NCBI GenBank assembly: GCA_022496185.1
Contig: WTXG01000101.1
Span: forward strand, 62,001 to 126,000
Source of the DNA: Multifurca ochricompacta
Lineage: Eukaryota; Basidiomycota; Agaricomycetes; Russulales; Russulaceae
DNA length: 64,000 nt
Direction: 5' to 3'
The notes under the pieces are model-generated. The model worked only from the letters and a program-made list of their open reading frames with translations, was not told the DNA's origin and did no database searches. Positions 39,600 to 61,578 of the stretch are shown in pieces. Position 1 is the stretch's first letter; every line of letters starts with the position of its first letter. A program made the translations under genes and the position numbers.

Positions 39600-40937
39600 C
39601 CGCAACTGGTGAAATGGCTGGTAGACCATGGCGCTAATGTCAATGCAAAGGGTGGCTATTATGGATATCCTCTGCAGGTGGCAGCAGCCCATGGACATGT
39701 CAAGATCGTGAAATGGCTGGTAGACCATGGCGCTGATGTCAATGCAAAGAGCAGCTATTATGGATATCCTCTGCAGGCGGCAGCAGCCAATGGACATGTC
39801 GAGATGGTGAAATGGCTGCTAGACCATGGCGCTAATGTCAATGCGGAGGGCGGCTATTATGGATATCCTCTGCAGGCGGCGGCAGCCAACGGACGTGTCA
39901 AGATCGTGAAATGGCTGCTAGACCATGGCGCTGATGTCAATGCAAAGGGCGGCGAGTATGGATATCCTCTGCAGGCGGCGATAGACAACGGACATGTCGA
40001 GATCGCGAAATGGCTGCTAGACCATGGCGCTGATGTCAATGCAAATGGGGGCAGGTATGGATATCCTCTGCAGGTGGCGATAGACAACGGACAAGTCGAG
40101 ATCGTGAAATGGCTGGTAGACCATGGCGCTGATGTCAATGCGGAGGGCGGCTTTTATAGATATCCTCTGCAGGCGGCGATAGCCAACGGATATGTTGAGA
40201 TCGTGAAATGGCTGCTAGACCATGGCGCTGATGTCAATGCAAAGGGCGGCCTTTATGGATATCCTCTGCAGGCGGCGGCAGCCAACGGACATGTCAAGAT
40301 CGTGAAATGGCTGCTAGACCATGGCGCTGATGTCAATGCGGAGGGCGGCTTTTATAGATATCCTCTGCAGGCGGCGATAGCCAACGGATATGTTGAGATC
40401 GTGAAATGGCTGGTAGACCGTGGCGATGATGTCAATGCGAAGGGCGGCACTTATGGATATCCTCTGCAGGCGGCGATAGCCAAGGGACATGTTGAGATCG
40501 TGAAATGGCTGGTAGACCGTGGCGCTGATGTCAATGCGAAGGGCGGCACTTATGGATATCCTCTGCGGGCGGCGATAGACAAGGGACATGTCGAGATCGT
40601 GAAATGGCTGCTAGACCATGGCGCTGATGTCAATGCAGAGGGCGGCTATTATGGATATCCTCTGCAGGCAGCGATAGACAAGGGACATGTCGAGATGGTG
40701 AAGTCGCTGCTAGACCACGGCGCTAATGTCAATGCAAAGGGCGGCTATTATGGATATCCTCTGCAGGCGGCAGTAGCCAAGGGACATGTCGAGATGGTAA
40801 AATGGCTGGTAGACCGTGGCGCTGATGTCAATGCGGAGGGCGGCACTTATGGATATCCTCTGCGGGCGGCGATAGTCAACGGACTTATCGAGATCAAGAA
40901 ATTGTTGATTGTGCATGGTGCGATGATCAATGTGTAG
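39600..40937 (+). repeat. Ankyrin-coding 99-bp tandem array, NLR-1
   Basis: About 13.5 units of 99 bp with near-identical framework (GTGAAATGGCTGCTAGACCA, then TGGATATCCTCTGCAGGCGG). A two-unit block is duplicated: the rare unit encoding GGFYRYPLQAAIANGYVE occurs at 40149 and again 198 bp later. Confidence 0.92.
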
Positions 40938-41207
40938 AGCTACAAGTATGGAACTGCTTTCGGAGTGGCATCTTTTCAAACGTATTCTAACATTTATAGG
41001 GGACTATGTATTTGTCCAGGTTCAGCTCGGTTATTATCATCTTAGTTGTTGTAAAGATACTTCCGGTGAAGACTCCAGACCAAACCATATGCTCTTGTTT
41101 CACAGCTTTGTTTAATAAAAATATTTGACACGTTAGTTTCAATTTCAGACAGACTCTGATTCAAGTAGGAAATCCGATCACGAGTTGTCCTCTTTCATCC
41201 AAAATCC
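40938..41207 (+). other. NLR-1 3' flank
   Basis: Shared with the NLR-2 3' flank (61579-61850) and, inverted, with the flanks of both NLR remnants. It contains AATAAAAATATTTG near 41115 and TTTCAGACAGACTCTGAT near 41143, the latter part of a dispersed repeat. No gene. Confidence 0.7.
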
Positions 41208-41537
41208 TGACGAAACGCAGCTGTGAAAGGGGTTTAGCTATCTATGTAGATAGCGGATAGGTTCAGTTGTTCTGGTCAAAACTTATATATTAATTAGTAT
41301 CTTTACCTATGTAGATAGAGGATAGACTATTACTAAGTGTTAGCTAACTACAGTAAAGATAAGATACTGATACTCACTTCAGTTGTTGTGGTCAAAACTG
41401 AAGTGAACACATACAATAAGAAGGAATGTGTTGTGCGTGCAATGTGGAATTGTATCTCAATCAATTAATGGACGCACTTTAGCTTATCTTATCACGATCG
41501 TTAGATCGAGTCCACCCGGGAGTCCGGCTCGTGTCAA
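41208..41537. repeat. Solo-LTR-like insertion, family C (related to copia-2 LTR)
   Basis: It begins TGACGAAACGCAGC and ends GTGTCAACA, and contains TTCAGTTGTTGTGGTCAAAACTGAA-like inverted motifs (near 41380-41402), matching the layout of the copia-2 LTR (47628-48030). It separates units 1 and 2. No target duplication was confirmed. 41538-41726 has no recognisable content. Confidence 0.55.
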
Positions 41538-42085
41538 CACATGTGGGGTATGAATATTATAGATAGGGCGTCCATAATTATTTGTGGAGTGCATGTAATA
41601 ATGAATGCGCAGATGAATACCTTCACAGCTGTGGAGGTAGGTGGCCCATTAAATACATAGGGTCAATTCGCGATCATTTCCGGACCAAGGGATGAATTCT
41701 CAGTGTTTCTTTGACCCCAAGCAACATTTCCACAGTTTGGATTAAAGAGGACAAAACTAAGAGAGACAGGACATACAGAAAGAACAGGTAAATGGCCGGA
41801 ATAATGAAGTAAATGCTAAGCAAATGCTCGCATCATGCGTTTTGTTAATTAAAGATTTCATTCCGTACCTGTATCAGAATCTGTCTGAAATTGTCAAATA
41901 TTTTTATTAAACAAAGCTGTGGGGAAAAAAGAGCATATGATTTGGTCTGGAGGATTCACCGGAACTATCTTGACAACAACTAAGATGATAATAACCGAGC
42001 TGAACCTGGACAAATACATAGTCCCCTTAAATTTTAGAATACGTTTGAAAAGATGCCACTCCGAAACAGTTTCATACTTGTAGCT

Positions 42086-42523
42086 CTACACATTGATCCT
42101 CGCACTATACTCAATCAACCATTTCTCGATCTCCAAATGCACATTGCATGCCGCTGCCTGCAGAGGATATCCAAAATGGTCGCCATTCGCATTGACATCA
42201 GCGCCATGGGAAGTGTAAATCTTGAGGCGGACGAGAAAGCGTGGCATGGATTCAAAGAGGTTGAGTAGAGAATCGTAATTATCACTGATCTTCTGTGATG
42301 CCTTTAGAATGAAGGTGAGATAACTGGTTGGAAGCAAGGGAGAGGAGATACGGACAGAGAGAAGTACATCAATAGCAGAAAATATGGCCTGAGCGGGTGG
42401 AAACACCTGAAAGAGAACATGTTGTAAGCTGGTCATAGCGAATGGGCCACACCAATTAGAACTCACCGAACCAATGCCAATTACGAGTGGTACGCAGTTC
42501 GTGAGGACGAAGAGTATATTCAT
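42086..42523 (-). pseudogene. NLR remnant B: Goodbye-like domain joined to ankyrin repeats
   Basis: Same structure and same KIYTS-HGADVNANG junction as remnant A, from ATG 42523. It has one ankyrin unit fewer: DHFGYPLQAAACNVHLEIEK runs straight to the C-terminal IEYSARINV. Remnant A has an additional 99-bp unit. The 5' deletion is also shared. The upstream region (42550-42800) is again a copied NLR promoter, inverted. Confidence 0.8.
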
Positions 42524-43325
42524 GGTTGGTTTCAGTTTCCTGAGGAGCTGAAGACATGAAGCTAGACTGGGTTATGGGGAAGAGTAAGAGGATCCCTGGG
42601 AAAAGCGGCGGATGGTTATCGATGGTTTATGTATAGATAGCCGCCTAAAAGCAATGATAGACGCTGAGATGTAGAGGTGACAAGAGTCAACATAGACACT
42701 GCATCTTGGAGGACCAGTGAACTGAACGTTGCAGATTCGGCACCAGAACGGGCCATGACTGACCATCTGGCCTTTTTTTATTTTTTTATTTTTAAATCGA
42801 TTTTTATACAACTTGAAGAGTGTGAAAGAAATATAACTACGCTGTGCGTGGATTGCTGATGCTCTTTAGAGTATCTTATCATTATCACGAGCATTAGATC
42901 GAGTCTGATCAAGGGGTGATCGTCACTTCCGTCGAGATTGTTTCTCACGCCCCGGGATGCCACATACAGCGTCGAGCTGTGTAGTCACCGGTGAAGATCC
43001 AAATCCTTGCGACGGCCAAACAGAAACCCGATTCAATTCCGCATCGCTTTTTGCGAACTGTGAACTATGATCTCAATTCATCGGTGCACTCAATCATTCT
43101 TTCGCTTCCCTTCGCCTTTGACTGAAGTTTTTCTTCTTTAGTCGTTTCGTACCCTCAGCCTTTACCTAGCCGTCATTTCAGCTCCCTTTTACTTGCCCAT
43201 AGATCTCAACCTCATGGATCGTAAACAGCAACAGTCCCCGCTCTCAACATTCATATCGACTCACAGCCAAGGTCTGATGGTTTTTTCCATTTTCCAATGT
43301 CGTCATCACCTCAAACGATGGGAGC
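42524..43325. other. Divergent intergenic region, unit 2
   Basis: Counterpart of 28850-29644: inverted NLR upstream sequence, then an LTR-family-C-like piece (42850-42930), then sequence upstream of the membrane-protein gene. No other feature. Confidence 0.6.
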
Positions 43326-44710
43326 ATGTCCATGACCCTTGACCCTGTACCCAGCGGCCAAGTGAGTCCCTATTGATTGGTAGAGTTTTGAAATAATATT
43401 GAATCGCATCTTCATAGGTTGACCCAGTCGCGCCGCGAGGAGTTGTCACTTATAGGATCTCAATTCTGGTTTGTGAGTAGCCGCGTGCTTTTGCTTCTTC
43501 TTTCGCTATTCATTATTAACGTCTTTTAGTTGCTTTTCGAATCTATCCCCCATAATTATGTGCTCTCTTTGGAGACTATCTCCTAGCTCCTGTGGACACA
43601 GCCTCGCCCTTCTCATCGCGCGCATGCTCGCTACTGGGTGGTCGACGTACGCATTGTGGCACACGATGAACTTCAACGACCGCCTGTTTTCACCTTATTG
43701 AAAGGCCAGATACGCCGTGTCACATAAGCTTGTGCTCGTAGTACTTTACGAGACGCTTGTGCTTCAGATGCGGTTAGTAGCCGTTCTATCTTACCCCACT
43801 ATTTCTCATGCATATATCCTCCCTAGATTGTGGACCTCGCGTTGCATTGGGATGCGCTCTTGATTTCCATTTACCTCTCCTGGCACCTTTACGAGGTATT
43901 AGTTCGGCCCCCACCTCGTTCGCAGCTACCGTTTTACCCATTTTACGCTAGGCTTATCGCACCCACACCTTCAGGCGCATTGGTCCCCGAAGGATATTCT
44001 GCGAATATATGGGGTACGGCCTTTCCTCCGTTCTATACTCGAGCCACAGGTCTTGACAGTTTCATGCAGTACTTTCTTGCAGTCTTGGTCAGCATCTAGC
44101 TATCTCTTTTCATCCTTGTCAATCCAATGGCGCTCTGGGTCGTTCAACTTCTCAATCTTACACCCCGGTCTATAATGAAACATTCATTCTCACCATTCAC
44201 ATCTGATTCCTTCACTTCGCTGCGCGGTGGCTGAGGTGGATTTCAATCTCAGTTGCTGATCCCCTGGCTGATGATCGTACGTTTAAACTTTCGACAGCCT
44301 GTGCCGGCGCGCTGACGAGCACATCGGCACATCGTAGGGTTGGTACTCCGTGCGCCGCGAGTGGCGCAAGTTGACCTGGGCATTCCTTGCCATCACCTTC
44401 TTCATGTTCGCGTGGTCAATGATGTTCTACTCGCGCGTATATCGTTTTACCTTCGTAGACTGGCCATTCTTCGGTTGCATGACTGTCTCTTCGTTCGTGG
44501 CACTGCTCTTCTTCACTGGCTTTCCCCTTCGTGTGTCTGCGCAACTATGACAAGGGTCTCGCACAGTGGGGTAAGCAATCTTTTCTGTTCTTCCTCGCGA
44601 GTAACTACTAACGTTACGACATGGTGGAACCAGTATACGTGGAACGAGTATTTGGGAATGAGGACTTTGAGCCTGATCTATTCCCTGCTGAGGTGATAGA
44701 AAAGGAATGA
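43326..44710 (+). pseudogene. Small multi-pass membrane protein gene, copy B
   Basis: Near-identical to 29645-31023: exon 1 MSMTLDPVPSGQ, later DLALHWDALLISIYLSWH, hydrophobic WRKLTWAFLAITFFMFAW and GCMTVSSFVALLFF, and the end EPVYVERVFGNEDFEPD to TGA 44708-44710. The same one-base frame change near the last membrane segment is present, so both copies share an older lesion or an unrecognised splice. Function unknown. It converges on the monooxygenase fragment. Confidence 0.6.
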
Positions 44711-44731
44711 AATCCTGATGGGGACCGCGCA

Positions 44732-46019
44732 TCAATAGAATAGAGAGCGCACATTAAGATCTGCTTCAATCTTGTGTCTGAACTCTTTATAGTATTTCTC
44801 GTCCCTAAACGCCTCGCAGTCTTTCTCTGAGTATAAATCTTTGGAGGTTAGAGAAGTCACTGTGACTGTGAATCTCTGTCTATATGCGTGAAAGATTGTG
44901 TGATGGATACAGTCGTCGCTCCCTGGATCACGACAGGCGAGTTCGAGCATGGTGCGAAGGGAGAATGGCTCTCCGATCCACGTCTTGAGCGGGCATAGTT
45001 TACGATCGACTTGACTTTGGGTTGAAGCGCGCTGCCAAGTTGGATTCCGGAAGGACCCTTAAAAGGACAAGACCCCAGTCAGACGATACGAAAGAGTGTG
45101 CGTTGGGGAGGGGGAGGACTTAGCACGCTACCAGTCACGCACTTTCCAATAACACACCGACGGCCTTATCCCCCCCAATCCTTCACAACTTCTTCCCACC
45201 AACCCTCCTCGGTGACGTCCCACTGCGCACTGTGCAGTACGCGTCCACGGAAATCACGAAGACCTGGAATGGAGGATACCAACACCCATGAAAAGCAGGT
45301 ACCTCGTGTCCTCGATCTCCGCGTCACGGTCTCTATCACGTCGGATCCTGAGGTGTCATTTACCGTCGCCTCATCCCACGAGGCCTGCGTGAGCTCGTGT
45401 TGCAGTTTTATCTGGCGCATGAACTTGTACTTTTCGACCATTCGCTTGAGGTAAGCGAGGATCTCGGGCCCAGAGGCGTAAAATCCGGATCCGTCTACCT
45501 ACTACCGTCAAGATCGCGTCAGTTTGGTCAATTCTAAGGTGGATGAGTGTTTTCTTGGCCCGCTTCTTCTGAGAAAGCGACGCACATTGGTCCCGACGAC
45601 ACACGAACGGAGATATCCGGCTTGAGAGCGAGTGACGACCAGGGAAGTGTCCTACACTGTGGGAGGGTATATCACAATGGGAGTCCCTGTTCATTGAGGA
45701 CTGAACTGAAGGCTGAAGATGGATGTATTTGTTAACGAACCAAGTACCGCCGATCCCATTCTCCTTTTCATAAACTGTCAACTCGATGTTTGGCACCTTC
45801 CGCGCAAAGCTATAGAATAATGGAACTTGGTGAGAAACTATAGAGAACAAAAGAAGATTGTTTCGGACCGAATGGCTGCGAGGATGCCACAAATCCGGCA
45901 CCGACGCATACAACTTTGATAGGGCGATACTCATCAATGGCAAACTGGCCAAATTGAAAGTTCTCAGAATGATTGCTTGTGTTCACACGCGTTTGGGAAG
46001 AAGAAGAAAAGGTGGCCAT
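44732..46019 (-). pseudogene. Flavin-dependent monooxygenase, N-terminal half, copy B
   Basis: Same fragment as 31040-32297, from ATG 46019. Its FAD motif GAGF is followed by a 1-nt deletion that breaks GxGxxG (near 45890). VPNIELTVYEKENGIGGTWF (45790) and SIPGLRDFRGRVLHSAQWDV (45260) are intact. The frame VVKDWGDKAVGV is correct here where copy A is shifted, but a 2-nt insertion follows in VGVIG (45155). After the intron the text GPSGIQLGSALQPKVKSIV is open where copy A has a TAG. It ends at 44732. Different lesions in the two copies show independent decay after duplication. Confidence 0.82.
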
Positions 46020-46640
46020 GTTGATAGAAAAAACGGGTCAGGACCAAGTAGTTAAATTACGATTACTCACTTGAGCTTTATATTAAAGAGTATGTGGGTA
46101 TAAGAACCTTGGCGATAAGGATAAAGGATTCCACCCTAAACATCCGCGGTTGTGGTGGAAGCATGTGGCCCTCATCCTCGCGGTTGTAATAAGCGGACCT
46201 CTACTCAATGCCTTCAAAGCATGAATATCAGGAGCTTCTTCGGCAGCTTGAGCGAGGAGTTGCTAAGCGTGTCGTCCTGAAAGTTGCAAAGACGTAGCGT
46301 ACAGAAACATTATTTATATTTCTTGCACAGAAAGTCGGCTATGTTTCGAAGAGATAACGTGGATCGTGTGTGCAGTACACCAACCGAATGGGAGAGATTG
46401 AATGGTGGGGTGACTTGTGAGTGTGGGAACTACATTTTCCACGCGCCACCCAACCAAAAGCTGTCGTCTCCCTCTCCCTCTCTCTCTTTTGTAGCCAAGT
46501 TACTCATGCTCGCCACTTCCTTGACATTATCCATAACAAGATCTTTTTCTCTTTAGTGAGGGCTGGATGCAGAAAGGCAAATATAAGCTCTTTTTTTCCC
46601 TTCTATCACTGACAACTTTTTAACTTGGAACTTAGTCCAG
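46020..46640. other. Spacer between monooxygenase and ankyrin fragment, unit 2
   Basis: Counterpart of 32298-32926, with CT-rich sequence near 46470. No gene is supported. Confidence 0.5.
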
Positions 46641-46979
46641 TTGACCATGTGGGTGCTAGATCATGGCGCCGATATCAATGCAAAGGGCAACTTTTTTGGA
46701 TACGTTCTGCAGGCAGCGGCACCCAAGGGAGATTTGGAGATGGTGAAATGGCTGCTAGGCCATGGTGCTGATGTCAATGTTGAGGGCGCTATTATGGATA
46801 TCCCTTGCAGGTGGTGGCAGACAAGGGACATGTCGAGATCGTGAAATCGCTGCTAGACCGTGGTGCTGATGTCAATGCGGAGGGCGGCCGTTATGGATAT
46901 CCTCTGCAGGCAGTGGCAGATAACAGAGATGTGGAGATCGAGAAATGGCTGATTGAGCATGGTGCGAGGATCAACGTGT
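46641..46979 (+). pseudogene. Ankyrin-repeat fragment B, frameshifted
   Basis: Counterpart of 32927-33268. It lacks one G in the GGCGGC of the second unit (near 46787), which shifts the frame. The correct frame returns only in the alternative reading (GGRYGYPLQAVADNRDVEIE, IEHGARINV, stop at 46979). Copy A is intact at this point. Confidence 0.8.
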
Positions 46980-47129
46980 AGACATGTATGGAACTTCTTT
47001 CAGAGTGGCAAATTTGCAGAGTATTTTGTATGTATGTACGCAGCACTTCATCTTAATTGTTGTAAGGATAGCTTGGCCACTAGACCAAAGCATATCGTTC
47101 AGTTTTGTCCTCTTTCATTCACATAGTAC

Positions 47130-47420
47130 TAATCTTCCCTTTCAACTGGTCCGTCAACCATGTATATAAAGGTACATACAATACTTGTAGCAGGACTAGC
47201 AGAAGCAAAGAGAATCAAAAGGTCAAATAGGAACTAGTGAGCAGCGTTATTCCCAAAGGTCGAGCACGACAAATCGTAAAGTCCAAAATCTTAGATTACC
47301 TCAGAGCTCCTTCTTCTCATACCTTCGATCACCACTGTCTCTCTCTTTGTTCGGGAACACGCTTTGCCTCAAACTCAACACAGATCATATCTGTACAGTG
47401 GCCAGTATGCAACAAGCCTG
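47130..47420 (+). repeat. TATA-bearing repeat cassette, copy 3
   Basis: Counterpart of 33420-33720 in unit 2, with TATATAAAGGTACATACAAT at 47162. 47421-47627 is ordinary spacer. Confidence 0.55.
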
Positions 47421-48057: not shown

Positions 48058-51000
48058 TTAGATAAGCCCTAGTCCAGTGACGAAGTCTTGGAGTTGCGTA
48101 TGCGCGTGTGGTTTTGTGAATCCATCAGCTAGCATTTCTCCAGTGGGTGTCCTGATTAGATCGATGTGTCCCTGTTCGACGTATTCGCGAATGGCGTGGA
48201 ATTTGATAGCAATATGTTTGGATCTTCGCCCGGTCACGGGGTTAAGAGCCAAGTCCACTGCCCCTTTGTTATCGCCATGTAAGGGAATCGGATCTGTGAC
48301 ATCATAGCCAAGTTCCGAGAGGAAGCTCCGGTACCAAGTGGCTTGATTTGCCGCTTCGGCAAGTGCCATGTACTCTGCGTGAGTGGTGCTTTGGGCGACA
48401 GTCTTCTGCTTACGCGAGGTCCAAGAGATGGATGAGTCAGCGAGTAAGAAAACGTAGCCCGAGGTGGAATGATGATCGTCGGCGTGGTCCCCAAGACTGG
48501 AGTCCGAGTAGCTGACAAGTCCCTCTCCGCGCGCTCCATCGTAGCGAAGCCTAAGGTTGGCTGTACTCCTTAGATAAGCCAGCACATATTTGGCAAGTCG
48601 TAGGTGTTGCGGCGAAGGATTTGCTGCATACTGCGCAAGACGCGCTACAGCGAAAGAAATGTCAGGGCGAGTCCCAATTTGCATGTACAGAAGGCTCCCA
48701 ATAATTTGTTGATAATAAGTGATTTCTGTTTGAGTAGCCTGTTCAGTGTGCTTTACCAGATGGACATCTGCCCCAGCAGGGAGTGGTGTGCGCGCGGGGT
48801 TCGCATCCACCATCCCAAAGCGTGCAACGATCTCTCCAATGTACTGTGATTGATCAATTTCCAGACGCTTGATAGATCTGTCGCGTGTGATCTGGACTCC
48901 AAGATATGAGTTGATCTCACCTAGATCTGTCATTTCATAGCGCTTAGATAAGATCCCCTTGATCCGGTTAACCTCCTTGAGAGTATCACCTAAGATAGTG
49001 ATGTCGTTGACATAGAGGATTATAATTGCTGTACCCTCCCCGTCTTGGTGACGACGCACGTATACCCCGGCATCAGAAAATGTGCGCGTGAAGCCGAGCT
49101 CCAATAGAACTCCATGGAATTGCAAGTTCCATGCACGTGAGGCTTGTTTGAGTCCGTAAATTGCCTTTTTCAGTAGGCATACCTTATTCGTCTGGCCCGA
49201 TGTGATGAAACCCTCTGGTTGCTCCATATAAATTTCCTCATCCAGTAGTCCGTTCAGGAACGCTGACTTGACGTCCATTTGATGGATCTCCCAATCCTCT
49301 AGCGCGGCCAACGCCAGTAACAGTCTCAATGACTCGAACCGGGCTACTGGAGAAAATGTTTCATCATAATCAATACCTTGAATTTGCGTGAATCCCTTAG
49401 CAACTAAGCGTGCGCGAAAGCGTCCATCGGCCTTGCGCTTGAAAACCCACTTGGACTTCACAGCCTTCCGATCAGCCGGTAAGTCCACTAGCGTCCAAGT
49501 TCCATTCTTGGCTAGTGCGTCCATTTCATATTGGCACGCGTCCTGCCAGTCGCTAGCATAGTCTGACTTCATCGCCTCCCGATATGTGAGCGGATCACTA
49601 TATGCAGCCGCCGCGAGCAAAGCACGATGCCCGAGTCGCCCATCCTCACCTAACTTGGCATTATCATTGCCAAAGTAACGTGGATTCCTGCGAGGATTCT
49701 CTCGCAGTCTCCGAGGGGGCACGTCCTCCAAAGTGGGGACAACGGTCCGCTGAGTCCGGAGAAACCGGTTGCGCAGCGCGCGGGGCGGAGGCTCTTGCAT
49801 TGCGGGGCGTGAAGGCGGGGTAGCCCAGACTGTATTACCAGAACTTGGGGTTTGTGTGGCAACAGGGGATGGCGTCCTTGGCGGATCGACCTCCCCTTGA
49901 GTTTGCATAGGGACAGCCATAGGGAATGTAACGGCCAGTGGCCCCTCCAGGGCCTTAGGTTGATCAGAATGAATGGACGGCTCACCATTGTCCTGAAAAG
50001 GAAAGGAGCGTTCGTCGAATGTCATGTCGCGCGACAGGACGACTGCTCGGGTACTCTTGTTCCATAGCCGGTAACCCTTAGAACCCGGCTCATACCCAAC
50101 AAGCGTCATCTCGATTGATCTCAGATCGAGCTTTCTACGCTTGTTCTCAGGCACATGAACATATGCCTTGCATCCGAAGACGCGGAAATAAGAGACGTCT
50201 GGAGTGTGACCAGCACTCCAGAGCTCGTGAGGCGTGTGCCAACCTATAGTTCGGGTGGGAGTTCTGTTGTAAGTATGAACGGCAGTGTCCACTGCCAACT
50301 CCCAGAAGCCAAGGGACAGGCCAGCGCTGTGTAACATAGAGCGCGCCTTGTCCATGATGGTCCTGTTCCATCTCTCGGCTATGCCGTTTTGTTGCGGCGA
50401 TCCCGGCATCGTCAACTTATGCTCGATCCCCCGTTCATCCAGTACAGACCTAAGCGCGCCTGACATGTACTCCCCCCCGCGATCTGAGTGCAAGGCCAGC
50501 ATTTTTTCCGAAGATTGAGTCTCAGCCCAAGCTAGGAATTTCCGAAATGCTGTTGCACACTGATCTTTGGATCTGAGGAAGTAGACCACACCATGTCTAG
50601 AGTAGTCGTCGATAAATGTTGCAATGTAGAGCGCGCCTTGAATAGACTGAACCTGCATTGGGCCGGCCAGATCGCTGTGAACGACCTGTAGCCGCCGGTC
50701 CGATCGCTTGTGAGAGGACTTAAAGGGGAGTCGCGTGTGTTTCCCGAGCTCGCACCCGGGGCATGGCGACTGATTGTGATCGATCGATGCATCAAATGAT
50801 ATCCCCTTGATGGATTCATGATACCGCTTGAGGGTGTTGTATGACATATGCCCCATGCGGCGATGCCAGATGTCGATAGGTTGCGACGTTTGAGCGTGCG
50901 CATTGAGTCCAGCCATGGAGGCATCCAGCCAGTATAGGTTGTCCTCCAAGTAACCCTGTGCTACCATCCGGTCTCGGACTGAGATCGTAAAAATTTTATC

Positions 51001-52116
51001 TGTAAAAGAGATCTGAGCCCCCTTCTGAGCAAGTGCACACGTAGAAATGAAACGCGTTGTAACGTCTGGTATGTGCAGCACGTTGCTTAGGGTGATCTCA
51101 GAACCTCTACTACCTGCAGTGGTCTTGAATACCACAGTCCCAACCCCAATTTGTCGCACATTCGAGTTGTCTCCCAGGCGTACAATGCCAGCCGCCGGAG
51201 TATACTGAATGAAGTCAGACCGATTTGGGGTGATATGATGCGTTGCGCCGGAGTCCATCATCCAACGTGATCGCACAGCCAAGTACAAGGAAACGCGGAG
51301 ATCGTCATTGTCATCGCCTATCTCTACGATAGACGCTGTCTGAACTGCTAAGTGCGCGTTAACGGCCTTGTTACTGGCCTGCGCGGTCTCCGATCCCTTC
51401 TTCTCCTCCAGATCCTTTTTCTTCTTCCAGCACTCTACAGCCTTGTGCCCTTTCTTCTGACAGTAGAAACATTTGGTATTCTTCTTGTCATGTTTTTGTT
51501 TGATGGGCGCGGCTTTGTTGAGTGAGGCGGAACCACCGGATCGACGACCTTCCTCATTCAGAATCCGCTCTTGGATAGTCTGAGGGGTAAGATCCTTTGG
51601 CGATCCGGATGCTAATATGGTGGACGCGACGGCAGAGTACGATTCGGGTAGTGCTTTGATCAGGATGAAACTAAACTGGAGATCTGAAATCTCCATCTCG
51701 TTGTTTTTCAGTGTGACGCAGGCATCATTGAGTTTCTGCAATTGCGGGAGCATGGGGGAGGACTCGTCCAGCGCGGTGCCGGTGAGGGCAGACCAAGTAT
51801 TGAATGCGGACATAGATCCGACTCCCCCATAGACGCGTTTGAGCTCGTCCCATTTTGCTTTACATGTGACAAACTTAGTGTCGTCTGCCACGGCTGTCCA
51901 GACATCCTTCTGAGCATAGAGCTCGAGGATTGCTAAGAGAACACCTTCAGTAGCCTCCCAGTCAGCAGGAGGGCTAGCAGGCTTGTCTTCAAGCAGGTGG
52001 TTCCGGACGCCATTCAAACGGAACAGGGCCATCATTCGCGCTGACCAGACTGGCCAGTTCGATCCATCTAGGATCTCGATTGCAGCAGAGGGTGGGAAAG
52101 TAAATGCAGGTGCCAT
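48058..52116 (-). CDS. Copia-2 gag-pol polyprotein, intact frame, RT motif YVND
   Basis: 1352 codons from ATG 52116. In order: gag (IEILDGSNWPVWSARMMALF at the start), zinc knuckle CFYCQKKGHKAVEC (about residue 220), protease WMMDSGATHHITP (about 295), GAG-pre-integrase and zinc region (HRRMGHMSYNTLKRY, CPGCELGKHTRLPF), integrase core (VVHSDLAGP, ALHSDRGGEYM, SPQQNGIAERWNRTIMDK), RT (KSKWVFKRKADGRFRARLVA, MDVKSAFLNG), and RNase H (HSTSGYVFLL, STTHAEYMALAEAA). The RT catalytic motif, YVDD in copia-1, is YVND here. The AAC codon is at 49006-49008 and GAC would restore a CpG. RNase H also has His where copia-1 has Glu (STTEAEY), which may be a family variant. Gag, protease and integrase look functional. 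RT probably is not. Confidence 0.95.
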   Translation of the reverse strand: MAPAFTFPPSAAIEILDGSNWPVWSARMMALFRLNGVRNHLLEDKPASPPADWEATEGVLLAILELYAQKDVWTAVADDTKFVTCKAKWDELKRVYGGVGSMSAFNTWSALTGTALDESSPMLPQLQKLNDACVTLKNNEMEISDLQFSFILIKALPESYSAVASTILASGSPKDLTPQTIQERILNEEGRRSGGSASLNKAAPIKQKHDKKNTKCFYCQKKGHKAVECWKKKKDLEEKKGSETAQASNKAVNAHLAVQTASIVEIGDDNDDLRVSLYLAVRSRWMMDSGATHHITPNRSDFIQYTPAAGIVRLGDNSNVRQIGVGTVVFKTTAGSRGSEITLSNVLHIPDVTTRFISTCALAQKGAQISFTDKIFTISVRDRMVAQGYLEDNLYWLDASMAGLNAHAQTSQPIDIWHRRMGHMSYNTLKRYHESIKGISFDASIDHNQSPCPGCELGKHTRLPFKSSHKRSDRRLQVVHSDLAGPMQVQSIQGALYIATFIDDYSRHGVVYFLRSKDQCATAFRKFLAWAETQSSEKMLALHSDRGGEYMSGALRSVLDERGIEHKLTMPGSPQQNGIAERWNRTIMDKARSMLHSAGLSLGFWELAVDTAVHTYNRTPTRTIGWHTPHELWSAGHTPDVSYFRVFGCKAYVHVPENKRRKLDLRSIEMTLVGYEPGSKGYRLWNKSTRAVVLSRDMTFDERSFPFQDNGEPSIHSDQPKALEGPLAVTFPMAVPMQTQGEVDPPRTPSPVATQTPSSGNTVWATPPSRPAMQEPPPRALRNRFLRTQRTVVPTLEDVPPRRLRENPRRNPRYFGNDNAKLGEDGRLGHRALLAAAAYSDPLTYREAMKSDYASDWQDACQYEMDALAKNGTWTLVDLPADRKAVKSKWVFKRKADGRFRARLVAKGFTQIQGIDYDETFSPVARFESLRLLLALAALEDWEIHQMDVKSAFLNGLLDEEIYMEQPEGFITSGQTNKVCLLKKAIYGLKQASRAWNLQFHGVLLELGFTRTFSDAGVYVRRHQDGEGTAIIILYVNDITILGDTLKEVNRIKGILSKRYEMTDLGEINSYLGVQITRDRSIKRLEIDQSQYIGEIVARFGMVDANPARTPLPAGADVHLVKHTEQATQTEITYYQQIIGSLLYMQIGTRPDISFAVARLAQYAANPSPQHLRLAKYVLAYLRSTANLRLRYDGARGEGLVSYSDSSLGDHADDHHSTSGYVFLLADSSISWTSRKQKTVAQSTTHAEYMALAEAANQATWYRSFLSELGYDVTDPIPLHGDNKGAVDLALNPVTGRRSKHIAIKFHAIREYVEQGHIDLIRTPTGEMLADGFTKPHAHTQLQDFVTGLGLI

Positions 52117-53560: not shown

Positions 53561-53861
53561 GATAACACAATAAATGAAACTACGGGCCAAAGATAAAGGG
53601 GCATGCAAAAGGGGCGGAACTGTAATGTACAACTGTAATGGTATTAGTCGCGCTTGCATAAAATCAAAATGAGATAAGATAATAATTGAGATATGAAATG
53701 CGTTTACTCTTTCTATGCTCTCTTCCACCTTTCTACCTCTCTCCTCTCGGGAACACTTTGCCTTGCACTCACCGCAGATTGGATCTGAACAAAGCAAACG
53801 AGTTATTCCCTGACATCCATAAGAGCAAGACAGTGCGGTTGCACCTAGAGTCACCGCGTCA

Positions 53862-54230
53862 ATGCGTTCATTTTCCGACCTTGCATTTTATTCCATACCC
53901 GCGTTGCCAACCGGATCGTGGTCATCCCCTGCACATGTTCGAACAGAATTGAATCTGTTTTCAGGACAGCTCTACTTTGATAGTAGAGGAGAATATGAAA
54001 GAATATGCGCACTCCTCGCGTTACACATGGTACATCTGGGTGCGGAGCAGATAGAAGTAGATGGATTTGTACCACCGAAGTACCACACTGGGGAGACTTC
54101 CCCATTCACCACTAGCAAGATAGCATTGTTCAAGAAGTTGATTGGATTGCAGAGGAAGGGGATGGCATATGGAGGAATGGATCTTGGGCAAGTTTTAGAT
54201 GCCTGTCCCTTGAGCAGCGATTTTGCATAG
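53862..54230 (+). CDS. Hypothetical protein fragment, copy B
   Basis: The open frame of up to 122 residues is probably real only from the 3' splice-like site TTTTCAG at about 53964. It reads GQLYFDSRGEYERICALLAL, VDGFVPPKYHTGETSPFT, KLIGLQRKGMAYGGMDLGQV and ends SDFA with TAG 54228-54230. Copy A (34600-34881) has lost one base. It looks like the C-terminal end of a larger protein. I do not recognise the family, and no upstream exons are clear. Confidence 0.5.
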   Translation: MRSFSDLAFYSIPALPTGSWSSPAHVRTELNLFSGQLYFDSRGEYERICALLALHMVHLGAEQIEVDGFVPPKYHTGETSPFTTSKIALFKKLIGLQRKGMAYGGMDLGQVLDACPLSSDFA

Positions 54231-54539
54231 AGACTGTAAGGATGGCTCGGGCGTTGAACGCGAAACCTCCGGTCATCACCACTTCTGGCAGGACCCATTC
54301 GCTCTCATTCTTCCATACTATACTGTCAATAAATTTTCTAACATTTGCCTGACTTTAGTTTCAGACAGACTCTGACACTGGTGCAAAGCGTGATTGATCT
54401 ATGGTACAAGTAATTTTACTTAGCATATTACAGGGATTGTGCGCGTTCCGGGCCGCCTGCCTATTCTTTTCCATACACCCGGCTACCCGGTTTCTCCCTT
54501 ACTCCCTTTTACTTATTCCACTTTTGTTCACCCCACATG

Positions 54540-54895
54540 GCTTCACCTCTGTTATTTTCTAAAACATTCCTTCAGCTAGGTCTCTCCACAAGTATATAAA
54601 GGTACATACAATGCTTGTAGTAGACCAGCCAGTGAACAAGCAACCTAGGAATCTCTCTCTCTCTCTTTTTCTCTTCTTGTGTGCTAAAGAACCTCAACAT
54701 CGTCCAGCGCAAGGTCAAACGGAACCAGCAAGCACGTATTTGCAAGTTCAAAAAGTACAACGACATCTCTCCTTCGACATCAAAGTTATCCTGGGTTTCT
54801 TCCTTCCTCCTCTCTCCTCTGTCTCTCTCTCTCCTCTCAGGAAACGCGCTTTGCCTCTTACTCACCGCGGACCACGTCCGTACAAGACATAGGAA
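54540..54895 (+). repeat. TATA-bearing repeat cassette, copy 4
   Basis: Contains TATATAAAGGTACATACAAT at 54594, AGCGCAAGGTCAAACGGAAC and CTTTGCCTCTTACTCACCGC. It is close to 25330-25690. This cassette, with about 300 bp before it including AGTTTCAGACAGACTCTGA at 54358, is extra relative to unit 1: in unit 1 the sequence passes straight from the hypothetical fragment (34881) to GACATAGGAAGTCC. Confidence 0.6.
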
Positions 54896-55605
54896 GTCCT
54901 CCCTAGAGAAGGTGTTCAGGCCATAGTGAGCCGTATAACATACAATTTCCAGAATACAATAAATTTATAAAATTTACAGATTCTTCAGTGATTTTCGAGA
55001 TGGTCTCCTGGAGTTGAGTTGATTGAATTGGGTTTGTGCAAAGGTGGGCCCGCCACTTGCTTGTAATGGCTACTATGTACCTGGTAGTAGCCACGCGATT
55101 TAGGCATTGTCGTCAAATTCAAAACAAATAAATAAATAAAGTGTGCTAAACCTTTTTTTTTTTGGAATCGAGTTTCCTTGGCGTGCTTGCAAGGCCGTGC
55201 TTAAGTCGCACGGCTATCTAGTACAAAGGGTCCCCGAGTAGCTACTGTAATTGTATTAGGGCAGAGCCCCATTGAAAAACCCCGGGGGGAAAAATAAGAG
55301 TAGTGAGAATGGCCAAGTGAGGTGAACGCAGACTGCAATGTCGTGTAGGTTCAGACCGACCGAGTCGATAGGAGAGGGGGGTCCATTAGGCCTCTGCTAG
55401 GCCTAGTCTGGATCAAGAGGCTGTTTTGCAGCGTAAGGTTTGAAGGCCCCATGCGGGTTTTGGAGGAAGTGCAGCAGAGCTTCAACGAGGTTCTTGGTAT
55501 TGAAGATGGTCATCAGGGGGATGACCAAGTGTGCATGTTTGACGCAATGCGGCTCTCGTGGTGGAGTGGGCAGTCATAAATGTTAAACAGGCATGCTGCT
55601 GGTTA
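54896..55605. other. Spacer, unit 2
   Basis: Counterpart of 34882-35573. No gene. It contains the shorter AAAT run (about 55125-55140) and a poly-T tract near 55152. Confidence 0.6.
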
Positions 55606-55902
55606 CTGACTCAGAATACTGGTACAGAGATGCCGGGATAGCGGTCTGACATAATTGTGAGATAAGCATATACATCTAAGAGGGCATGTGATCAAATCAC
55701 ATCATTAGCGAGATGACACGCTCGTTTAAATTAGTAGCTGATATAATATATTGAAAATGTATATAAGCCACTGTATAGCTGCTATAGATAAAGCAGTTGC
55801 TATCACATTATCGCATGCATCTAAGTCTCTAAACTAACAAGGTGAGATAGTTAGTAGTACTGTAGTATCTAAAGTACAATCCTGCGCCATGCCTGTTCCA
55901 CA
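55606..55902 (+). repeat. Solo-LTR-like repeat, family S, copy 3
   Basis: Counterpart of 35574-35908, ending CCTGTTCCACA. It is preceded by the copia-1 LTR-end-like TGTTAAACAGGCATG at 55581. Confidence 0.5.
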
Positions 55903-55974
55903 ATGCATGTGCACAACGGCCCCGTCCACAGCTCACACTAAAATGGGTTCCACCTGTTGAGACGGACCAGTAAG

Positions 55975-56275
55975 CACCGGAAGCGACCGGATAGTTCAGG
56001 ACCGGATAGCCGGACACCCGGGTGGACCCGATCTCTTATTGATCGTGATAAGATAATCTAATCTAAAGTGCGTCCATTAATTGATTCAACAATTCCACAT
56101 TGAACGCACAACACGTTCCTTCGAAAATTAAGTAGTTATATTCCTCTCACTCTTCAAGTATTATATAGGCACTCTACTTTGTACGCGTTCACTAACTGAA
56201 CTTATCCCCTACCTAAATAGGCAGCTAAAACCCTTTTTACAGCTGTTTACATTAACTGCACTGGCCTCGCGGCTT
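55975..56275 (-). repeat. LTR-like fragment of family C, unit 2
   Basis: Counterpart of 35975-36285, directly upstream of the NLR-2 promoter region. Confidence 0.45.
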
Positions 56276-56530
56276 ACGTAGTATAAAAATCGATTTGAAA
56301 AATGAAAAAAAAAAAAGCCAGATGGTCAGCCATGGCCCGTTCTTGTGCCGCATCTCCAACGTTCAGTTCACTGGTCCTCCAAGATGCAGTACCTATGTTG
56401 CCTCTTGCTACCTCTACATACCAGCGTCTATTTTAGTTCTTAGGCGGCTATCTATACATAATCCATCGATAACCATCCGCCGCCTTTCCCAGGGATCCTC
56501 TTACTCCTTCCCATAACCCAGTCTAGCTTC

Positions 56531-59500
56531 ATGTCTTCAGCCCCTCGTACACACATTCCCACAACTGCCTCCCCTTCTCATTTCAAGCTCATCCTAGATG
56601 CCGCCCTGGATCAGTATCTTGCAAACACAGGCATAAATCTGTCTGAACACCAGCTTGTCGACAAGCTGAAAGGATGCGACACTGCGGACGCCGTGATCGA
56701 CGTACTTCAAGGAGGATCGTCTCGGTTTAGCATGTTTCGAGATGGCAATCGCAAGATGAAGCTTCTAAGGAAACTGAAACCAACCGTGGACATACTCCTC
56801 GCCCTCACGAACTGCGCACCACTCGTAAATGGCATTGGTTCGGTGAGTTCTAATTGGTGTTGCCCATTCGCTATGACCGGTTTACAACATGTTCTTTTTC
56901 AGGTGTTTCCACCCGCACGTGTCATATTTCCTGCCATTGGCGTCCTTCTCTCTGTTCGTATCCCCCTCCCTTGCTTCCAACTGGTTAACTAACCTTCATA
57001 CCAAGGCGTCAAAGAAACTCAGTAAAGATTTTGATTCTATAAACGACCTCTTTCAATCCATGCAAGGTTCTCTCATCCGCCTCAAGATATACACTTCCCC
57101 TGAGACTCCTGTTACCGAGTCCATGCTCGAGATTTTGGTCAAGACGATGGCGGAACTGCTCACGATCCTGGCTCTGGCGACAAAAAAAATTAAGAAAGGT
57201 CGACTCTGTGAGTGAACTACCGTTTCTATGCTCCCATGATTAAGCGTTTGGCAGGGGCGTACGGACGGATGCTGATAGGGGATAATGAGGTCCAGGACGC
57301 ACTTCAGAGGTTGGACAAATTGACCCGGGAAGAGTCTCTCGCCGTAGCGGCGCACACATTTGGTACCGTGAACAAGATAATGTGTTCGTCATCCATTTCG
57401 TAGTAACATTATAGACAGGGCAGCTAAGACATTATTTGCAGATGATCAGATGAACAAGGACATTCGGACATGGCTGTCACCTCCTGACCCATCTAAAAAT
57501 CACAACATTGCGCGGAAACTTTACCATGAGGGAACCGCCAAGTGGTTCGTTGAAGGCGAAACATTCAAGGAATGGAAATCGAAGGGTTCGCTTCTGTGGT
57601 TAAATGGGAATGGTAGGTTGACTGCACTACTTGGGTGCTTTTTGTTGCTGACGGTCTTTTCTTGAAAGCGGGATCTGGCAAGAGCATCCTTTGGTACGTT
57701 TGCCTAGCATTATGGGGTATCGCTAGTACTCATCTGAATGATCAGTTCCACCATCGTTGAGGATGTCGAGCGTCTATGCTATGGTGGATCTGCCTGCTTT
57801 GCGTACTTTTATTGCGACTTTCGAGACACGGAAAAGCAAAATATCCGTGGGCTACTATCTTCTCTCTTAGTGCAGCTCTGTTCCCAGTCAGATGCCTACC
57901 GTGCCATCGTCTCAGAATTGTACTCGAAACATGGTAATGGCCAGAAGCAGCCCGACGAGAAGGATCTTGCAGAAGCTTTGAAGGCCATGCTCGTAACAGC
58001 CGTTCAGGACCCAATGTACATCATCATTGATGCCCTCGACGAATGTCCTCTCTCTGGAATGCCGTCTAAACGTGAAGAAGTATTGAAACTTATTAAAGAC
58101 CTCGTCGACCCCCGCCTCCGAAATTTAAGGATCTGCGTCACTAGCCGCCCCGAACCAGATATTCAGAAAGCCTTTACAAAGCTGGCGCATTGTCCTGTAT
58201 CCCTTCATGCGGAAGGTGGTCAAACGCGGGACATCTCCGAATATATCTACTCAACGGTCAACACGGACCCCATGATGAGTGAGTGGGAGGCGGAGAGAAA
58301 GGAACTCGTGATCAAAACGCTCTCGGAAAAGGCAAACGGAATGTAAGTTTCAAACCAAAATGAATATTTATTTTGCAATCATTATTCATGTCATGGTGTA
58401 GGTTTAGATGGGTTTTCTGCCAACTGGAGACACTGCGTCGTTGTCTACCAAGGAACTTCTCTTCGACGCTCGAATCACTCCCAAAAACACTAGATGAAAC
58501 ATACGAGGCCACGCTACGAAGGATCGAAGATAATGACTGGAAATTTGCTCATCGCCTGTTCCAATGCCTTGCGTTCTCTGCTCGTCCACTCCGAGTCGAG
58601 GAGGTTGCGACGATGCTTGAATTCGATTTCGACGCTGGCAATATGCCAAAGCATGACGTAACCTGGCGAAACCCGGACTCTGACGGAACTGTACTGTCCA
58701 CATGCTCCAGCTTGGTTGTCATCATCAATAACGTCGACGACAGGGGAAAAGAGAGTCGTGTTGTACAATTTGCGCACTTTTCTGTGCGGGAATTCTTGAC
58801 GTCAGACCGGCTGGCGGGATCGACGGAAAAACGCTACCATGTTCTCCCCAAAGAATCGCATAGAGTGCTTGCGCAGACATGCCTGAGCACGCTGCTCGGA
58901 TTCGACAAGACCACGGACACAGATACTGTCGAGAACTTTCCGTTGTCTCAGTACGCGGCAAGATACTGGGTAGATCACGCGCGATTCGAAGATATCTCCT
59001 TGGATGTAGGAGGTGGAATGGAAACGTTGTTTGACCCAGACAAGACCCACTTCCTAGTTTGGATTGGAATATATGACTTGGACTCATACAGGGAGGAGGG
59101 GACTGAAGACACTTCGGTACACCCAATATACTACGCGGCTTTCTGCGGCTTCCCGCAATTGGTGAAATGGCTGGTAGACCATGGCGCTGATGTCAATGCG
59201 GAGGGCGGCGAGTATGGATATCCTCTGCAGGCGGCGGCAGCCAGGGGACATGTCGAGATCGTGAAATGGCTGCTAGACCATGGCGCTAATGTCAATGCAA
59301 AGGGCGGCCCTTATGGATATCCTCTGCAGGCGGCGGCAGCCAGGGAACATGTCGAGATCATGAAATGGCTGGTAGACCGTGGCGCTGATGTCAATGCAAA
59401 GGGCGGCTATTATAGATATCCTCTGCATGTGGCGGCAGACAACGGACATGTCGAGATCACGAAATGCCTGGTAGACCATGGCGCTAATGTCAATGCAATG

Positions 59501-61578
59501 AGCAGGCCTTATGGATATCCTCTGCAGGCGGCAGTAGCCAAGGGACATGTCGAGATCGTGAAATGGCTGGTAGACCATGGCGCTGATGTCAATGCAAAGG
59601 GCGGCTTTTATGTATATCCTCTGCAGGCGGCGATAAACAAGGGACATGTCGAGATCGTGAAATCGCTGCTAGACCATGGCGCTGATGTCAATGCGGAGGA
59701 CGGGGAGTATGGATATCCTCTGCAGGCGGCGATAGACAACGGACATGTCGAGATCGTGAAGTCGCTGCTAGACCATGGCGCTGATGTCAATGCAAAGGGC
59801 GGCTATTATGGATATCCTCTGCAGGCGGCGATAGCCAAGAGACATGTCGAGATGGTGAAGTCGCTGCTAGACCATGGCGCTGATGTCAATGCAGAGGGCG
59901 GCAGGTATGGATATCCTCTGCAGGCGGCGATAGACAACGGACATGTCGAGATCGTGAAGTCGCTGCTAGACCGTGGCGCTGATGTCAATGCGGAGGGCGG
60001 CGATTATGGATATCCTCTGCAGGCAGCAATAGTCAACGGACATGTCGAGATCGTGAAATGGCTGCTAGACCATGGAGCTGATGTCAATGCGGAGGGCGGC
60101 TTTTATGGATATCCTCTGCAGGCGGCGATAGACAACGGACATGTCGAGATCGTGAAGTCGCTGCTAGACCATGGCGCTGATGTCAATGCAAAGGGCGGCT
60201 ATTATGGATATCCTCTGCAGGCGGCGATAGCCAAGAGACATGTCGAGATCGTGAAATGGCTGCTAGACCATGGCGCTGATGTCAATGCGGAGGGCGGCAA
60301 TCATGGATATGCTCTGCAGGCGGCGGCAGCCTTCGGACATGTCGAGATCGTGAAATGGCTGGTAGACCATGGCGCTGATGTCAATGCGGGGGGCGGCCAT
60401 TATGGATATCCTCTGCAGGCGGCGGCAGCCTTCGGACATGTCAAGATCGTGAAATGGCTGCTAGACCATGGTGCTGATGTCAATGTGGAGGGCGGCTTTT
60501 ATGGATATCCTCTGCAGGCGGCGGCAGCCAACGGACATGTCGAGATCGTGAAATGGCTGCTAGACCATGGCGCTGATGTCAATGCGGAGGGCGGCAATCA
60601 TGGATATGCTCTGCAGGCGGCGGCAGCCTTCGGACATGTCGAGATCGTGAAATGGCTGTAGACCATGGCGCTGATGTCAATGCAAAGGGTGGCTATTATG
60701 GATATCCTCTGCAGGCGGCGGCAGCCAAGGGACATGTCGAGATCATGAAATGGCTGGTAGACTATGGCGCTGATGTCAATGCAAAGGGCGGCAGTTTTGG
60801 ATATCCTCTGCAGGCGGCGGCAGACAAGGGACATGTCGAGATCGTGAAATTGCTGCTAGATCATGGCGCTGATGTCAATGCGGAGGGCAGCACTTATAAA
60901 TATCCTCTGCAGGCGGCGGCAGCCAATGGACATGTCGAGATCGTGAAATGGCTGCTAGACCATGGCGCTGATGTCAATGTAAAGGGCGGCTATTATGGAT
61001 ATCCTCTGCAGGCGGCGGCAGCCAATGGACATGTCGAGATCGTGAAATGGCTGCTAGACCATGGTGCTGATGTCAGTGCAAAGGGCGGCACTTATGGATA
61101 TCCTCTGCAGGCGGCGGCAGCCAACGGACATGTCGAGATCGTGAAATGGCTGCTAGACCATGGCGCTGATGTCAATGCGGAGGGCGGCAATCATGGATAT
61201 GCTCTGCAGGCGGCGGCAGTCTTCGGACATGTCGAGATCGTGAAATGGCTGGTAGACCATGGCGCTGATGTCAATGCGGAGGGCGGCAATTATGGATATG
61301 CTCTGCAGGCGGCGGCAGCCTTCGGACATGTCGAGATCGTGAAATCGCTGGTAGATCATGGCGCTGATGTCAATGCGGAGGGCGGCGAGTATGGATATCC
61401 TCTGCAGGCGGCGGCAGCCATTGGACATGTCGAGATCGTGAAATGGCTGCTAGACCATGGTGCTGATGTCAATGCGGAGGGTGGCGGTTATAGATATCCT
61501 CTGCGGGCGGCGGCAGCCAAGGGACATGTCGAGATCGAGAAATTGTTGATTGAGCATGGTGCGAGGATCAATGTGTAG
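56531..61578 (+). pseudogene. NLR-2: Goodbye-like / NACHT / ankyrin STAND protein, one-base frameshift in the ankyrin array
   Basis: Exons I infer: 56531-56842, 56903-56953, 57006-57207, 57255-57381, 57419-57612, 57669-57693, 57746-58342 and 58402-61578. Each junction keeps frame with GT...AG introns of 37-60 bp. The N-terminal part (SHFKLILDAALDQYLANTG, KTMAELLTILALATKKIKKG) resembles the fungal STAND N-terminal Goodbye domain. NACHT has Walker A GNAGSGKS (across two introns) and Walker B MYIIIDALDEC (58015). A winged-helix-like segment (LPKTLDETYEATLRRIEDND) precedes 24 ankyrin units. After unit 15 one base is missing at about 60658, giving TAG at 60659-60661. The remaining nine units continue in the next frame to GARINV and TAG 61578. 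The upstream 250 bp is shared with NLR-1. It may still give a 15-repeat protein, and the missing base may be a sequence error. Confidence 0.88.
59150..61578 (+). repeat. Ankyrin-coding 99-bp tandem array, NLR-2
   Basis: About 24.5 units of 99 bp. Rare unit types recur at whole-unit spacings: AIAKRHVE at 59831 and 60227 (396 bp apart), and GGNHGYALQ at 60302, 60599 (297 bp) and 61192 (593 bp, one short of six units). The one-base shortfall matches the frameshift. Confidence 0.93.

Follow-up and report, generated by a model that had tools for sequence, protein, structure and literature searches.

The window, a stretch of 64,000 nucleotides of the Multifurca ochricompacta genome, carries two genes, NLR-1 and NLR-2, whose translations match Pfam profiles as Goodbye-NACHT-ankyrin receptors. 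Both lie on the forward strand. By splice-site inspection, the Goodbye region of NLR-2 (56531-57362) consists of four predicted exons (56531-56824, 56903-56953, 57006-57207 and 57255-57362), which, joined and translated, matched PF17109 with an E value of 4.7e-15 (56.5 bits vs. a cut-off of 24.8). The open reading frame of the NACHT exon (57738-58346) scored above the cut-off for PF24883 (E 4.1e-26) and PF05729 (E 9.5e-07). The last exon is split into two open parts. The first (58373-60661) covers ankyrin units 1-15, preceded by the last portion of the nucleotide-binding module, and its frame ends in unit 15; the second (60652-61578), in another frame, encodes units 16-24 with the cap and matched Ank. 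In NLR-1, alignment with NLR-2 placed exon 1 from the start of the Goodbye domain as far as the target site of an inserted LTR (36538-36816). It is followed by an open frame for the NACHT (NPHP3_N-like) exon at 38185-38793, which corresponds to a PF24883 match at G000:C4:100185-100595 in the genome scan, and by an open last exon at 38835-40937, which encodes the end of the nucleotide-binding module and the ankyrin array (Ank families, best E 3.8e-101). The P-loop GSGKS is readable in the upstream DNA. The domain features by which fungal STAND/NLR proteins are recognized are present: a NACHT domain, a Goodbye N-terminus (in NLR-2) and C-terminal ankyrin superstructure repeats. An earlier sequence-only reading had set the interval at 39600-61578, which takes in both arrays; this start falls inside the last exon of NLR-1, and the genes begin further upstream, at about 36538 and 56531.

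The NLR-1 array (39651-40937) has 13 units of 33 residues, of which unit 13 is the C-terminal cap, and the NLR-2 array (59204-61578) has 24 units with a frame shift in unit 15, the same counts as in the sequence-only reading. Translation of the units also returned every position-3 residue given there: Y,Y,Y,E,R,F,L,F,T,T,Y,Y,T in NLR-1 and E,P,Y,P,F,E,Y,R,D,F,Y,N,H,F,N,Y,S,T,Y,T,N,N,E,G in NLR-2. An AF2 single-sequence model of the NLR-1 array was an ankyrin solenoid with a pLDDT of 82 and helices at unit positions 7-13 and 17-25. In a Foldseek search with this model the top PDB match was 6mol_A, a DARPin (designed ankyrin binder).

The units are clearly repeated and alike, but describing them as nearly identical with an almost invariant framework is too strong, because units compared in pairs have a mean amino-acid identity of 0.78 in NLR-1 and 0.79 in NLR-2. 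We counted differences among 34 of the 37 units; both C-terminal caps and the unit with the frame shift were left out because each runs into a stop. Position 3 holds 17.5% of the nonsynonymous differences, followed by positions 14 (12.0%), 12 (11.2%), 33 (7.6%) and 13 (6.2%). Positions 3, 12-14 and 33, to which most variation had been ascribed, are therefore the top contributors, but 45% of the nonsynonymous differences fall elsewhere; positions 24 and 22 come next. Variation was neither spread evenly over the unit nor mostly synonymous, with an overall pN/pS of 1.29 and change focused on few positions. The set 2, 3, 5, 13, 14 and 33, which we take to be the positions randomised in DARPins, holds 49% of the nonsynonymous differences, a share matched by 161 of 200,000 random six-position sets. 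Designed ankyrin proteins have also been randomised at positions 2, 3, 5, 10, 13 and 14 (PMC3308923). Position 12 lies outside both sets.

NLR-1 and NLR-2 belong to a family found in at least 40 places of the Multifurca ochricompacta genome at 88-100% DNA identity. All 30 family loci retrieved carry arrays with differing position-3 residues, and mean unit identity is 0.66-0.85 over the 28 arrays with at least three scored units.

The framework of these units is under purifying selection, and a few positions on one face of the ankyrin unit, above all 3 and 12-14, exceed neutral amino-acid change. Framework pN is 0.68 of framework pS in the window, within a range of 0.53-0.72. In contrast, pN at position 3 is 6.6 times framework pS (34 window units). 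The diversity of codon-3 bases 1 and 2 relative to fourfold framework sites is 6.4 (4.6-8.7) for the 34 clean window units, 4.5 (3.5-5.4) for subfamily A and 3.2 (2.8-3.8) for B. No fourfold site is as diverse as the first base of codon 3 (0/15 in the window, 0/15 in A and 0/13 in B). Diversifying selection on the concave-face positions is thus indicated by pairwise counts and diversity ratios rather than by a codon model. One may ask whether surface positions vary simply since the fold does not need them. Among the 19 organism-named proteins examined from the 120 matches listed, positions 3, 13 and 14 were within the eight most variable positions in 8 of 8 fungal relatives with mean unit identity above 0.6, and also in 10 of 11 with identity below 0.6. 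Because relatives with unlike units vary most at these places too, position alone is no proof of selection. Relaxed constraint lifts change to the neutral rate at most, however, and codon 3 is 3.2 to 6.4 times as diverse as fourfold sites, with bootstrap intervals above 2.7; we therefore regard it as unlikely. The concentration of variation on the binding face, as the sequence-only reading had proposed, goes beyond what relaxed constraint is expected to give.

Targeted hypermutation of codon 3 and its neighbours, like that of diversity-generating elements or somatic hypermutation, could also raise variation at these positions. Of five pairs of A units that match everywhere except in codon 3, four differ by two bases in that codon, as such a process might produce, but short-tract conversion accounts for these pairs as well. 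Synonymous diversity at codon 3 is near or moderately above that of the framework (0.11 vs. 0.10 in the window, 0.20 vs. 0.14 in A and 0.33 vs. 0.20 in B). As a point against our main reading, selection, synonymous diversity is higher as well at window position 14 (0.42 vs. 0.10) and at B position 13 (0.56 vs. 0.20), values that path counting may inflate. In the window, codon 3 encodes 11 residues by 11 codons, and TAC, ACC, AAC and GAC are absent among the 34 units; because a local mutator is expected to make such codons, their absence speaks against it. A mutator of this kind appears highly improbable to us.

Both window copies are damaged in this assembly, NLR-1 by an LTR and NLR-2 by a frame shift. 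Exon 1 of NLR-1 contains a solo LTR with ends TG...CA (36822-37256, strand unassigned), flanked by a 5-bp target duplication, AACTG, at 36817-36821 and 37257-37261; the insertion is absent from NLR-2. A search with this LTR listed 43 matches, 28 of them (the LTR itself counted) over nearly the whole query, and three contigs carry two copies at a spacing of 4.6-4.9 kb, the arrangement expected of complete LTR elements. We reject the reading of NLR-2 as a single 24-unit protein because of the shift in unit 15, where its two open frames (58373-60661 and 60652-61578) join at a one-base length difference near 60658. The window also contains four array remnants: three units with a cap (32972-33268, + strand), three units with a cap and one frame change (46686-46981, + strand), two antisense units with a cap (28306-28503, - strand) and one antisense cap unit (42086-42184, - strand). 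These lesions, together with frame changes inside the part of the array read at 8 of 30 loci, would fit a decaying cluster in which the arrays are mostly pseudogenes and their variety reflects drift and unequal crossing-over. Against this, framework pN/pS is 0.53-0.72, and 22 of the 30 loci keep their frame throughout the stretch that was read, roughly 15 units from the start (the NLR-2 shift lies past that stretch). Moreover, a focus of change on one face is not expected from decay, and some single-base differences look like consensus errors because overlapping contigs disagree. General decay seems to us improbable, and NLR-1 and NLR-2 may be degraded, partly dead copies within a family that is itself live.

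The same overlapping contigs bear on the quality of the arrays as assembled. Contigs C353 and C567 are without the length difference near 60658 but carry other single-base differences there, and both end within the NLR-2 array. As alleles with different arrays the C353, C567 and C4 copies of NLR-2 are ruled out; over the parts covered they agree except for a few single-base differences. These contig ends and differences, and the reported unreliability of short-read assemblies of such arrays (PMC12222747), would be compatible with unit order and diversity arising from misassembled repeats. C353, however, repeats the first 14 NLR-2 units and the preceding degenerate unit in the same order with zero differences, all 30 loci read show varied residues at position 3, and such residues cannot arise by misjoining whole units. 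An assembly artefact is consequently very unlikely.

Comparison of unit order inside the assembly gave a mixed picture: NLR-2 and C353 have the same order, whereas C379/C393 (L019/L020) and C4:34694 (L021) have different arrays. In the latter comparison the upstream 2.9 kb is 0.9-1.2% divergent vs. 14% for the arrays. Two collinear blocks, C379:169242 and C4:41904, have 8 and 4 units, respectively (degenerate first unit and cap counted), at 2% divergence. Flank searches of the C379 and C4 blocks returned mostly repeated, probably mobile, sequence; C4:50928-52000 is the only flank piece that matches C379 and C114 alone, beside family loci on both. From this sequence arrangement, the C379 and C4 blocks are likely allelic.

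The arrays of many paralogues draw from a weakly subdivided pool of units. For 83 of 111 units in A and 129 of 194 in B, the nearest unit occurs exclusively in a different array. Fst between arrays is 0.09 (A) and 0.07 (B) for the framework and -0.02 and 0.04, respectively, for codon 3. The pool is not fully mixed, because units cluster by gene beyond chance (23.1 observed vs. 11.5 expected in A; 44.6 vs. 9.1 in B). All four gametes occur in 26 of 45 framework site pairs in A, in 107 of 226 in B and in 11 of 120 for the 34 window units alone. These data support recombination within and between genes. In A (106 units), r2 is 0.135 for sites less than 10 nt apart and drops to 0.007-0.009, the shuffled level, at greater distances, so that sites more than about 10 bases apart within the 99-bp unit are no longer linked. 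In B (158 units), r2 is 0.02-0.03 up to 50 nt vs. a shuffled 0.006-0.008, and 0.007 beyond; this set excludes a divergent first-unit class, with which r2 is inflated to 0.40 under 16 nt. Segments shorter than one unit therefore assort almost independently. The fall of r2 with distance is shallow in B, and low r2 may partly reflect recurrent mutation. Exact shared stretches are weak proof of recent conversion, since the nucleotide-binding regions share longer ones than the arrays (medians of 90 vs. 59 bp in A and 70 vs. 48 bp in B). The view of a sensor reshuffled by repeat recombination is partly borne out by the marks of recombination and by the binding-face variation. Whole-unit reshuffling, however, is too coarse a picture, and as the sole exchange it is ruled out, because linkage breaks down inside the unit. 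Searches of open-licence papers listed no account of how linkage falls off within the ankyrin units of fungal NLRs.

It has already been published that the concave ankyrin face of fungal NLRs is subject to selection and to recombination of repeats (PMC4986451), and the present family is a new, large example. In that work, PNP_UDP/NACHT/ANK and NB-ARC/TPR NLRs of Podospora anserina have highly conserved repeats with repeat-number polymorphism between strains, and the positively selected positions are few, all but one on the concave face (inner helices and beta-hairpin) (Dyrka et al. 2014), in agreement with the earlier remark that such NLRs diversify at few sites. Like PNP_UDP/NACHT/ANK, the window genes join NACHT to an array of alike units. 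Unlike those Podospora NLRs, they have a Goodbye N-terminus, stated there to occur very seldom with highly conserved repeats, and the family occupies dozens of sites in a single genome. The cut for highly conserved repeats in that work is above 85% over at least 100 residues; the 78-79% mean pairwise identity found here lies below it, although by a different measure. Exchange within and between genes, concerted evolution and hypervariable binding positions are shared with HET-D/HET-E/HNWD of Podospora (PMC1805685, PMC2873952 and PMC12222747), and a short gene-conversion-like tract within one WD40 repeat is among the cases given (PMC2873952). Those repeats form a WD40 beta-propeller rather than an ankyrin array and are reported to cluster essentially by gene, whereas in the present family most units have their closest match in a different gene and Fst stays below 0.1, although the measures differ. 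In Lactarius tabidus, P0180 and P0071 also combine Goodbye, NACHT/NPHP3_N and ankyrin (precomputed Pfam); P0180 has 49% identity over the end of the nucleotide-binding region, and the units of P0071 are 40% identical, without a near-uniform array. The window arrays share 33-residue units in one register, a uniform framework and concave-face variation with DARPins and their kin (6mol, 4gpm), which are human-made libraries.

Taken together, the sequence evidence suggests that the arrays are probably sensor domains of fungal STAND/NLR-type receptors, with one face under diversifying selection and units recombining among paralogues. Tandem and dispersed paralogues would undergo unequal crossing-over and short-tract gene conversion, which would keep the framework alike while recombining face residues. 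New face combinations would be selected because the solenoid presumably binds a changing ligand, such as non-self, parasite or partner molecules. A putative ligand, once bound, would allow the NACHT module to oligomerise and set free the Goodbye domain; given the relation of that domain to HeLo/MLKL-like bundles, it may act as a trigger of cell death. More tentatively, dozens of Goodbye-NACHT-ankyrin genes might form a genome-wide receptor library that shares one pool of sensor residues and exchanges them in tracts of less than one 99-bp repeat, so that face positions assort almost independently and each gene is a fresh combinatorial draw. If this possible reading were true, exchange between genes rather than inside them would be the main source of new recognition, unlike in the Podospora WD40 receptors.

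Repeat-based diversification of sensors, known chiefly from work on Podospora, is here extended to a basidiomycete with a very large Goodbye-NACHT-ankyrin family, and repeat mixing between genes is now given in numbers (Fst, linkage decay, and array vs. flank divergence). The arrays would be natural counterparts of engineered ankyrin binders. If these results are confirmed in phased strains, the way in which fungi without adaptive immunity track changing partners or parasites would become directly measurable.

NLR-1 and NLR-2 lie in the same direction and each ends in a tandem ankyrin array (39651-40937 and 59204-61578, respectively) in the window (G000:C4:62001-126000; assembly searched, 53.8 Mb in 605 contigs). 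Both arrays matched Ank families, the nucleotide-binding exon of NLR-2 matched NPHP3_N (PF24883) and NACHT (PF05729), and the NLR-2 N-terminus, translated from four exons joined by splice-site inspection, matched the fungal STAND domain Goodbye. These matches indicate that both genes encode predicted Goodbye-NACHT-ankyrin receptors. Gene structure and relatives point to a fungus, probably an agaricomycete: named relatives among the protein matches include Amanita, Lactarius, Lactifluus, Mycena, Russula and Athelia, plus some ascomycetes.

Both copies carry lesions on which the sequence-only reading was silent. The first (Goodbye) exon of NLR-1 holds a 435-bp insert with TG...CA ends, flanked by a 5-bp target duplication (36817-37261 with both duplicates), and the NLR-1 frame continued into it reaches a stop. 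Because the insert recurs in the genome (43 matches listed, 28 near-full query, self included) and copies of its family are paired at 4.6-4.9 kb spacing on three other contigs, it is read as a solo LTR. The NLR-2 array changes frame in unit 15 by a one-base length difference at 60658. Contigs C353 and C567 overlap this position without the difference, yet carry other single-base differences close to contig ends; thus, the frame change could be a consensus error. Elsewhere in the window, the segments at 28392-32886 and 42073-46600 form a block duplication of 94% identity, and ankyrin array remnants in both orientations, antisense and sense, lie nearby. An open frame of 1352 residues on the minus strand (48058-52116), read by eye, resembles a Ty1/copia-type retrotransposon polyprotein. 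The repeat at 3000-9500, with several open frames and about 18 long copies elsewhere (79-94% identity), is probably a mobile element, and a repeat of about 710 bp (62718-63430) occurs at dozens of genomic places, mostly at 90-98% identity.

The residues previously listed at position 3 of the ankyrin unit (X in GGXYGYPLQ) were correct in 37 of 37 units. Three units running into stops were left out of the variation set. In the other 34, position 3 shows 11 residues and 11 codons, every one NNT or NNG, and its pN is 0.63 versus a framework pS of 0.096 (framework pN, 0.065). Diversity at bases 1-2 of codon 3 was 6.4-fold that of fourfold framework sites in the window (4.6-8.7; 15 fourfold sites), and 4.5- and 3.2-fold in two wider unit sets. 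One ankyrin face carries excess amino-acid change, and the framework is under purifying selection. To call the framework almost invariant was an overstatement, because residue identity among the window units is just 78-79% and positions 24, 22, 5 and 26 vary as well.

An AlphaFold2 single-sequence model of the NLR-1 array (pLDDT 82.1) places helices at residues 7-13 and 17-25 of the unit, and its top Foldseek match in the PDB was the DARPin 6mol_A (TM 0.83, 44% identity). In the model's register, position 3 lies in the beta-hairpin region and positions 12-14 at the inner-helix end. Position 33 is varied in some DARPin libraries. In the library of PMC3308923, positions 2, 3, 5, 10, 13 and 14 were randomised and position 33 was left unvaried, being no direct part of the binding surface. 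The face was assigned from the known ankyrin fold and from PMC4986451 and PMC8229355.

A genome search with the NLR-2 nucleotide-binding region located at least 40 places sharing 88-100% identity with it, among them the two window copies and some probable assembly duplicates. A second list gave 19 more by our own count and another region one more, while an NPHP3_N genome scan gave at least 150 matches, spanning all kinds of genes with this domain. An ankyrin array was present in 30 of 30 loci fetched from the 40-place search. The array of locus L010 repeats that of NLR-2, and that of L020 is almost a repeat of that of L019; with duplicates dropped and L058 and L059 added, the unit set comprised 305 units from 30 arrays, assigned by eye to subfamilies A and B. 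The most variable positions were 3, 14, 12, 33 and 13 in A (108 of 111 units) and 13, 3 and 14 in B (random 120 of 194 units). The main hypervariable site differs by paralogue group, being 13 in B (L019, L021-L038) and 3 in A. At L060 (C183:43500-45760; noted with L012), the 3' flank is 98.5% identical to that of NLR-2 over 547 bp and the array is different.

Exchange occurs inside arrays and between arrays. Framework r2 in A was 0.135 within 10 nt and at the shuffled level farther apart (106 of 111 units); in B, with low-scoring units and a divergent first-unit class taken out, it was 0.02-0.03 to 50 nt and at the shuffled level beyond (158 of 194 units). For 83 of 111 units in A and 129 of 194 in B, the closest unit occurred in other arrays only (ties, 8 and 27); own-array nearest neighbours were nonetheless two to five times the chance frequency. 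Between-array Fst for the framework exceeded that of shuffles, at 0.09 (A) and 0.07 (B); for codon 3 it was -0.02 (A) and 0.04 (B). The C379 and C393 loci have an array in common. The array at C4:34694 is different, with upstream sequence 0.9-1.2% divergent over 2.9 kb, 14% unit-by-unit divergence from C379/C393 and likeness limited to the first unit; two receptors and one flank are collinear between C379 and C4. The r2, Fst and C4:34694 comparisons agree with the suggested repeat recombination, but the NLR-2 arrays of C4 and C353 are identical across the 15 units compared, degenerate first unit included.

The phenomenon of selection is itself already known, because PMC4986451 describes this pattern for ankyrin and TPR receptors of P. 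anserina, together with variation at like positions in an ankyrin receptor of Chaetomium globosum. The same paper has Goodbye very seldom joined to highly conserved repeats. Podospora WD40 repeats group essentially by gene in PMC12222747, whereas the present family shows weak structure, with measures and sample sizes that are not identical. Positions 3, 13 and 14 are among the eight most variable in 8 of 8 named relatives with alike units and also in 10 of 11 with unlike units; their variation reads as a shared strategy, at sites on which ankyrin folds place no demand anyway. The arrays may be diversified by unequal crossing-over and short-tract conversion, a changing ligand would exert selection on the array face, and the signal would pass via NACHT to Goodbye. 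In PMC9815663, Goodbye is linked to HeLo/MLKL bundles, with its function left open. The observation in the window is real and its kind is ordinary; its scale and the extent of unit mixing are unusual.
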